Below are positions 24,477-26,180 of a stretch of 64,000 nucleotides of DNA, piece by piece. How positions within the stretch are numbered: position 1 is the stretch's first letter; each line of letters begins with the position of its first letter. This DNA is from Tremella fuciformis (taxonomy: Eukaryota > Basidiomycota > Tremellomycetes > Tremellales > Tremellaceae). The stretch is from positions 1,364,001-1,428,000 of the forward strand of contig CP136493.1 in NCBI GenBank assembly GCA_032768795.1. Reading direction: 5' to 3'. The notes beneath the pieces are model-generated. The model was not told the origin of the DNA and ran no database searches. It worked only from the letters and a program-made list of their open reading frames with translations. The position numbers and the translations under genes are program-made.

Positions 24477-26180
24477 ATGCCCAAGGTGCACAAGAATCAT
24501 GCTACCAAAAGCAGCTCGTATGGCGCTGAGCCGGCAACGCTCCTTCCCCTCGGACTGCCCCCAGTGCACACCACCATCGACCTGTTCTGGACGTACCTGT
24601 ACTTCCGCTTTGTCGCCGAGCGACACCGCATGTACGAGCGGAGACAGGCGGGCATACCGCGAAACCAGCTCAGCCAAGATGAGACGATGACCAAAACATA
24701 CCTTGGCAACATCTACCGGCAGCTGGATCCGGGGAGCATCCGCGTACGAGAGCAGGTCATCATGGTGGGCGACATGAGCAATCAGGAGGTGTGCTGTGAG
24801 CCTCGCTTGTCTGCTTGTCTGGGAGACACCGAGAAGTCGCGCTGATCGCAGTTCGCATATTTCTCTTCTCGGCGTTCTACAAAGATACGACCTGGCAAGC
24901 TCTTGTCGAAGGTCTCGGCGAGACACCGTCCTGGAAGCATTTCGACATTGCGCGGTACGAGGCCATACTGTACGAGCGCTCGGTCGTGCAGAAGAAACCG
25001 ATATACATCTCCGAATTCCAGCTCGTCCCTCCCACAAAATACTTTGGCCCGCCGCACTATGCCGCATCCCTGCGCTTCGTGCAGTCCATGATGGAGATGG
25101 GGCTGTAAGCCTGAGCCCTTACTAGAGGAGAAGCACTGAATTGCAGACCGGAGAAACTGCTCGAGTGCAAGTACGCTGTCGACGCCAGTGCCGTCCTCCG
25201 TACAGTGCCGACGCTGGGCGGGTTCTTGTCCCTGTGTCTCATCTGCAACCTGAACCAGTCGCCGCATTTGAACTTTCAGCACCGTGAGCATGCGACCTGC
25301 GGACCGGGCTCGCGCTCGTACCTCCGTCGCATCTTTGGCGAGACGGTCATCAACAGCCCTGCGATGGAAGACGCAGGTCTGCGGTGGTTGTGCGACAATC
25401 AGTGGCGGTTCTGGGCGCGACTGGGAGAGACGCCCCCCCACGCGTGGCAGGTCGGTCTGCAACCTGGCCTCACACCGCTCAGCTGCGAGAACTCGCTGTG
25501 CTGGACCCATTGCTACGTGGCCTCGTTTGCCAAGTACGGGTTCAAGAACCTGTCGACGCTACCGCCCCCGACATTTGACCCGTCATGCGACGAGGCATCA
25601 TACCCGGCCTGGTGCGATGAAGAGAGGTGGGCCAGCGGGTCGACCAGGAGGCCATGTGCCGGAGAGGACGATCGGCCGCCGACGCAGGGCGATGAGGTGT
25701 ATGAAGTGGAGAGAATCGTGGATCGTCTTGGGAGCCGGTCAGACAGGGACGGACTGTTCAGGGTGCGGTGGAAGGGATATCCACCCGAGGATGATACCTG
25801 GGAGCGAGCATCGTCTTTGCGCAATGGCGCGGAAGAGGTGAGCTCAGGTATTGATGACTTCGCGGGAGTTGTCTGAGCGGCAGGCATTGCAAGAATGGCT
25901 GGACTGGGAGGGCACAGTGTGGTCGACAGTGGCAAGGATCGGCAAGGGGAGAGTAGGAGCAGAGACGAAGAGGAGAAGTCATACGGCGGACACAGAAAAT
26001 GGCTCTGTGAGGAGTCGATCTGCCAAGCGTAGACGGGAAGCAGTCAAGGAGGAGGAGTATGAGGTCAAAGTGGAATACAAGTTCGAGCTGAAGATGGAAA
26101 CGAAGGCGGAGGATGTTGATGTGGATGATCTTGCGAGCTTGACGGATGAGGCAGTGATGGCGGTTGCCGTAGCCGCTTGA
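24477..26180 (+). CDS. 5-hmdU DNA kinase-type helical domain (formerly aGPT-Pplase) fused to a chromodomain
   Basis: About 520 residues in four exons (introns near 24796-24848, 25105-25146, 25836-25884). Residues ~33-350 carry the pattern of the 5-hydroxymethyl-dU DNA kinase helical domain, known from phages with hypermodified thymine and from some fungi: IDLFWTYLYFRFVAERHRMY with ERRQAG, LGNIYRQLDP, FRIFLFSAFYKDTTW across the first intron, SWKHFDIARYEAIL, GGFLSLCLICNLNQSPHLNF, then GPGSR and CENSLCW with KYG. Residues ~373-430 are a chromodomain: VYEVERIVDR, then FRVRWKGYPPEDDTWERAS and a helix continued after an intron (ELSERQALQEWLDWEG). The Tyr, Trp and Tyr of the methyl-lysine cage are present. 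The C-terminal ~85 residues are charged, with SAKRRRE as a possible nuclear signal. No P-loop is visible, so kinase activity is not implied. Start is the first in-frame ATG; an upstream exon cannot be excluded. Confidence 0.75.

Follow-up and report, generated by a model that had tools for sequence, protein, structure and literature searches.

A gene of the basidiomycete Tremella fuciformis joins HMUDK_hel (PF18723), a helical domain of phages, to a chromodomain, and this fusion spans Agaricomycotina and Ustilaginomycotina (Tremellomycetes, smuts and Agaricomycetes) and is not a local construction. The fungal HMUDK_hel sequences form a single clade, and in its Tremellomycete members four residues that are constant among the phage-type relatives have been exchanged. 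The product would be a heterochromatin-tethered base-flipping protein, one that in this fungus more likely reads a base or recruits partners than acts as a modifying enzyme of the phage kind, a view that we regard as about evenly balanced between right and wrong. The architecture is already visible in public domain annotations and is not newly discovered here. Among the titles and abstract beginnings of the literature searched, no publication describing an HMUDK_hel-chromodomain fusion was found; the 2013 work of Iyer et al., which reportedly mentions basidiomycetes, lies outside that scope.

Gene model and domains of the fusion protein

The window, i.e., the whole stretch of 64,000 nucleotides that was analysed, contains the gene at positions 24477-26180 of the forward strand, where four exons encode one 519-aa protein (Table 1). 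Both these coordinates and the two domain identities proposed in the first-pass annotation were confirmed by the gene model and a Pfam scan. The intron combination was picked among open splice options, with the register matched by eye to the relatives compared. The acceptor of intron 3, also chosen by eye, yields GAEEALQEWLDWE, in register with relatives, and an alternative acceptor gives 524 aa, with five additional residues just past the chromodomain. In the Pfam scan, for which the 524-aa version was used, HMUDK_hel scored 235.4 bits against a cut-off of 25 (E 1e-69; model positions 4-272 of 281) and the chromodomain (PF00385), matched at residues 376-422, 43 bits against a cut-off of 25.1 (E 4e-11). 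The same scan found no P-loop family in the protein, as had been read from the sequence earlier, so the PF18748 kinase domain is absent from it, and there was no match to PF18724. R49, D68, N78, R81, D84 and GPG recur in almost every row compared, a set drawn from the present alignments and not from a published definition, and are present in the window protein. The closest solved chromodomains are those of CDYL, MPP8, Clr4, CDY and HP1, and the three residues that we take to be the methyl-lysine cage aromatics are kept in the window protein and in 20 of 20 picked relatives; the claim of an intact aromatic cage therefore stands.

Table 1. Coordinates of the fusion gene and its parts (window positions)
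Feature	Position	Strand	Remarks
Exon 1	24477..24795	+	ATG at 24477; encodes conserved R49, D68, N78, R81, D84; HMUDK_hel starts at 24591
Intron 1, 56 nt	24796..24851	+	GT-AG; splicing yields the QEVCFRIFLF motif known in relatives
Exon 2, middle of HMUDK_hel	24852..25104	+	
Intron 2, 42 nt	25105..25146	+	GT-AG
Exon 3	25147..25837	+	HMUDK_hel C-terminal part (to 25519), linker, chromodomain; uninterrupted
Intron 3, 46 nt	25838..25883	+	GT-AG; acceptor set by register with relatives
Exon 4	25884..26180	+	C-terminal tail; stop codon ends at 26180
HMUDK_hel (PF18723)	24591..25519, residues 39-315	+	interrupted by introns 1 and 2
Chromodomain (PF00385)	25700..25837, residues 376-421	+	
Cage residues	Y376 (25700-25702), W399 (25769-25771), Y402 (25778-25780)	+	aligned with CDYL and MPP8

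The linker between the two domains, encoded by exon 3, contains a PAWC-type motif (here YPAWC), and an open reading frame at 25205..25876 in the open reading frame list overlaps this exon. Because a single exon holds both the C-terminal end of HMUDK_hel and the chromodomain, and because 69 of the 76 PF18723 proteins pooled from two fungal-query searches carry both labels (PF18723 and chromodomain), the sequences make two separate transcripts, the outcome that would have undone the original observation, appear unlikely, and the same evidence rules out the fusion as an artefact of the gene model. By eye, the exon 4 tail carries a basic stretch that resembles an NLS (RSRSAKRRRE), after which it ends in acidic, charged residues. 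A profile search located PF18723 at one locus in the 28.1-Mb, 11-contig genome. Six of the ten window ORFs scanned gave Pfam matches, one pair belonging to the same gene, and the identified neighbours (NPR3, a 2-hydroxyacid dehydrogenase, a GDA1/CD39 phosphatase, PSME4 and ATG22) are ordinary fungal genes; the single locus and these neighbours make a mobile element unlikely.

Spread and history of the fusion

With the window protein as query, 47 proteins were returned, of which 45 carry PF18723 and 42 both labels; the named sources are Uapishka, Naematelia, seven Kwoniella species, Kockovaella, Vanrija, two Cutaneotrichosporon, Ceraceosorus and Sporisorium. Tremellomycetes supply the best named relatives, and the same fusion, which the first-pass annotation had proposed to look for in this class, occurs there in Kwoniella, Naematelia, Vanrija and others. 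All 32 proteins returned by the search with the Sporisorium protein carry PF18723, 28 of them with both labels; they come from smuts (Sporisorium, Ustilago, Kalmanozyma, Pseudozyma, Thecaphora and Violaceomyces) and from Agaricomycetes (Trametes, Ganoderma, Lentinus, Cubamyces, Daedaleopsis, Pilatotrama, Heliocybe, Clathrus and Fibroporia), bearing out the earlier remark that the helical domain has fungal homologues. In three of the proteins without a chromodomain label (P0159, P0165 and P0168) a chromodomain is visible by eye. The query with a mixed fungal and phage alignment returned 1021 proteins, the 120 listed being mostly phage; the fungal-looking P0158 from this search stands outside the 76-protein count. 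No Cryptococcus and no U. maydis protein was seen among the matches listed (best 7,992, 7,991 and 7,996 candidates scored), which is a hint at most.

The more careful of two trees, built from 58 rows, unites the 22 fungal rows in a single clade (ultrafast bootstrap 100, SH-aLRT 99) and does the same for the 10 Tremellomycete-type rows (100/100); both clades were recovered in a quick 85-row tree. Neither smuts nor Agaricomycetes are monophyletic, with Ceraceosorus P0044 and Clathrus P0188 placed apart, and the smuts lie closer to the Tremellomycetes than the Agaricomycetes do (89/92). This proximity differs from the accepted species order, so transfer or old paralogy is possible; the simplest reading is a single early-basidiomycete origin of the fungal HMUDK_hel, and transfer within fungi may have occurred. 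The Ceraceosorus guamensis protein P0044 (longest contig 3,802 bases) groups with the Tremellomycetes, yet keeps D225 and E310. It may represent contamination, transfer or an old paralogue, and was left out of the historical inference on account of its conflicting residues and 3.8-kb contig. The phages LuckyBarnes (L014) and L025, both with a TAGT glycosyltransferase and without the kinase, adjoin the fungi in the trees (98/90 and 99/99), a proximity that is only a lead because the branches are long and the TAGT records as a group are unclustered (8 changes, and 500 of 500 shuffles gave as few). Three PF18723-like proteins on Alphaproteobacteria contigs (L142, L145 and L151) form a deep branch of their own in the 85-row tree.

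Phage relatives and the exchanged residues

Phage M6 encodes the amino acid:DNA transferase ADDT (gp51, PF18724), the P-loop 5-hmdU kinase (gp54, PF18748) and HMUDK_hel (gp55, PF18723; aGPT-Pplase clade 1 in some records) in three distinct genes, which rules out reading PF18723 as either of the first two. The initial assignment to the 5-hmdU DNA kinase helical domain thus holds as far as the family match goes, PF18723 being a separate protein, neither kinase nor transferase. From a pattern-based scan of IMG/VR, 80 loci were retained, and the records of 50 were searched whole; the 30 left out were short contigs or apparent near-duplicates, with four dropped for number alone. PF18723 was found in 50/50 records. 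The 5-hmdU kinase was detected in 24 of them at E <= 0.001, with 20 scoring above the curated cut-off; in 23 of the 24 it is encoded upstream of HMUDK_hel in the same orientation, 68 to 893 nt separating the two domain matches, and in one it lies 10.5 kb away. Whole-record search found no kinase in the other 26, which may be fragments. Near HMUDK_hel these 26 loci hold 138 mechanical ORFs of at least 100 aa, of which 102 were scanned, the 36 left out being mostly short or on the opposite strand; matches were to TAGT glycosyltransferase (10), thymidylate synthase (7), Radical_SAM (4) and C5 methylase (3), with two each to AAA_33 and Zeta_toxin, so that a few of the kinase-less loci may encode a divergent P-loop kinase. 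TAGT occurs in 8 of the 50 viral records, none with the kinase (Fisher p 0.004, for related records in a non-random sample). Since HMUDK_hel accompanies either a kinase or a glycosyltransferase, it looks like a shared base-presenting module; it may serve more than one base-modification pathway, and may also carry out a separate catalytic step in phages. No settled role for phage HMUDK_hel was found in the literature searched. A validated bacterial defence system has been reported to contain a 5-hydroxymethyluracil kinase domain (PMC13092281).

The window protein and phage HMUDK_hel share the same Pfam family over nearly the full domain, and the phage proteins examined lack the chromodomain, stand in several cases in base-modification gene clusters, and keep D225, E310, K313 and R316. 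An 85-row alignment comprised 68 reference rows (46 phage or virus, 10 smut and 12 Agaricomycete) and 16 Tremellomycete-type rows, namely the window protein and 15 of P0001-P0046, those left out being mainly fragments and close relatives, with P0044 kept apart. To offset redundancy among the 46 phage rows, 37 of which are every third listed match of the mixed-alignment search and mostly M6-like, a further 53 viral and 10 bacterial rows were taken from separate loci, 9 of the viral loci being shared with the 46. Across the reference rows, 36 window positions reach at least 90% conservation; the Tremellomycete-type rows retain 19 of these at the same level of at least 90% and fall short of it at the other 17. 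The quartet D225, E310, K313 and R316, by which we define a phage-type subgroup in the present analysis, is kept in 68/68 reference rows and in 63/63 rows of the wider set (53/53 viral, 10/10 bacterial), and is replaced in 16/16 Tremellomycete-type rows: D225 by F, Y or N, E310 by W, and K313 by R or, in the window protein, C. The window protein has N, W, C and A at the four positions and so lacks the phage-type quartet altogether.

W65, F76, T87, R113 and Y162 are likewise changed in 16/16 Tremellomycete-type rows, so the exchange of the quartet is part of a broader divergence; D68, N78, R81, D84, F217 and GPG 243-245 are kept in 16/16. W310, fixed in all 16, suggests a rebuilt site and not plain decay, and residues 225, 310, 313 and 316 may be inferred to line one pocket. 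By pattern count, the ExxLC motif takes the N/W form in 43 of the proteins P0001-P0046, the N/E and H/E forms in one each, with no match in P0028, and the H/E form in 31/31 of P0159-P0189. N306 was rejected as Tremellomycete-specific, since N occurs in 25/53 viral rows, and H306 is not diagnostic; E305 varies in the wider viral and bacterial rows.

Predicted fold, genomic setting and possible function

Models of relatives and fold searches predict for HMUDK_hel a helical fold of the HhH type, in the HhH DNA-glycosylase fold group, with fold-search lists that leave room for other folds. The nearest solved fold to these models is the phage 5-PmdU glycinyltransferase, and the top BFVD matches are phage predicted structures; a sequence search found no solved relative. 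With the ADDT/5-PmdU glycinyltransferase family itself (PF18724; M6 gp51; PDB 8z2m and 8z2n), which the window protein does not match, the profile comparison of HMUDK_hel was not significant (probability 2.7%, E 0.017). Structural alignments with the HhH DNA glycosylases MjOgg, SsOgg, AlkA, EndoIII and OGG1 have 6-15% identity, and sequence-profile comparison gave no match to them.

The genome contains a Pre-SET exon and two C5-methylase loci. One (L138, G000:C1:7100500-7110400) combines Chromo and SNF2 with a C5-methylase signal below cut-off and is DNMT5-like by layout, and the other (L140, G000:C3:1691500-1698500) has one match over cut-off. Dnmt5-type methyltransferases also place a chromodomain on a DNA-acting protein, but their catalytic part is unrelated to HMUDK_hel. 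Genome-wide, 150 of 213 candidate chromodomain matches were scored (loci include L001-L008), and many lie in open frames of more than 1000 aa, which may be chromodomain LTR retroelements. Profile searches of the genome detected no TET/JBP, no 5-hmdU kinase (PF18748) and no ADDT (PF18724), absences that are weak since the control genomes also fell below cut-off; the kinase model did detect its own family in viral records. The co-occurring TET/JBP oxygenases that the first-pass annotation had proposed to look for were accordingly not seen. According to a published survey, all Kwoniella species keep Dnmt5 and DnmtX and Cryptococcus species lost DnmtX (PMC11185503), and a review describes U. maydis as being without methyltransferases (PMC13297926). 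With the fusion present in seven Kwoniella species and many smuts, and no protein listed from Cryptococcus or U. maydis, the fusion may track C5 methylation. TET-bearing DNA transposons are reported from Pucciniomycetes, Agaricomycetes and Pezizomycetes (PMC12730594), and on that reading the smut fusion with its phage-type residues is not obviously dependent on them.

Alternatively, the protein could be a working DNA base-modifying transferase or kinase subunit, making or extending a hypermodified pyrimidine in heterochromatin. The glycinyltransferase as closest solved fold, the 5-hmdU kinase or TAGT near the phage relatives, and the phage-type quartet kept by smut and Agaricomycete members all speak for such a role, and with the quartet intact an enzymatic step is still possible in those two groups. 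The Tremellomycete clade lacks the quartet, however, and the failure to detect kinase, TET/JBP or ADDT in the genome, weak as it is with controls below cut-off, points the same way, so that for T. fuciformis we consider this role unlikely. The altered quartet and the undetected partner enzymes together favour a reader or recruiter in Tremellomycetes. The early choice between a base-modifying and a base-recognising protein can be narrowed to this extent: modification, as yet unproven, is less probable here than in the smut and mushroom relatives.

A chromatin-targeted DNA glycosylase, analogous to MBD4 and removing or repairing a base in methylated heterochromatin (e.g., T from deaminated 5mC), would agree with the predicted fold and with the C5-methyltransferase loci encoded in the genome. 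MBD4, a proven glycosylase, also fuses a mark reader to an HhH domain, its reader being an MBD and that of the window protein a chromodomain. Against this stands a fixed Phe: in the presumed HhH hairpin, located by eye, the usual place of the catalytic lysine, which we take to be F217, holds Phe in 68/68, 16/16 and 63/63 rows, and the catalytic Asp was not located. The identified phage neighbours, moreover, add groups and do not excise. Excision thus seems unlikely; the lyase option raised in the first-pass annotation has a counterpart in the predicted HhH-glycosylase fold. Decay of the gene in T. fuciformis, with ancestral function lost and residues drifting, could be read from S303 (D in the other 15 Tremellomycete-type rows and 66/68 reference rows) and C313 (R in those 15), but it is very improbable, as position 303 is T, S, E or N in 8/53 viral rows, which also refutes S303 as window-specific, the ORF is intact over four exons with GT-AG introns and a coding GC3 of 0.72 against a GC2 of 0.46, and both domains score far above cut-off with the cage intact.

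The heterochromatin-tethered reader or recruiter that we prefer would be a nuclear protein with two binding ends. Its chromodomain would dock on methyl-lysine histone tails, most likely H3K9me, and HMUDK_hel, with its predicted HhH DNA-glycosylase-type fold, would engage DNA and probably swing a 5-substituted pyrimidine into its pocket. In phages the fold partners kinases or glycosyltransferases whose presumed substrates are hydroxymethyl-pyrimidines in DNA. A chromodomain would have been added, probably once, to a copy of HMUDK_hel in an ancestral basidiomycete, and in Tremellomycetes, including T. fuciformis, the protein with its exchanged quartet may read or present a base, or recruit partners to methylated heterochromatin. 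A more speculative extension, to which we give little credence at present, is that basidiomycete heterochromatin contains an undetected 5-substituted pyrimidine, or 5mC handled by phage-derived machinery, and that the fusion protein reads or finishes this base on H3K9me nucleosomes, the phage-like pocket of smuts and Agaricomycetes and the rebuilt pocket of Tremellomycetes serving two ligands.

The original observation is therefore confirmed, and its interpretation partly supported. A histone-mark reader and a DNA-base-handling fold of phage hypermodification clusters are combined in one gene in three large basidiomycete groups, and the fusion suggests that DNA bases and chromatin marks are connected in a way not yet explored. 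With natural variants at hand, some phage-like and others changed in their residues, mutagenesis and mass spectrometry could address the question directly, and the answer could reveal a new way of reading or editing bases in silent chromatin and provide a eukaryotic handle on a phage domain.
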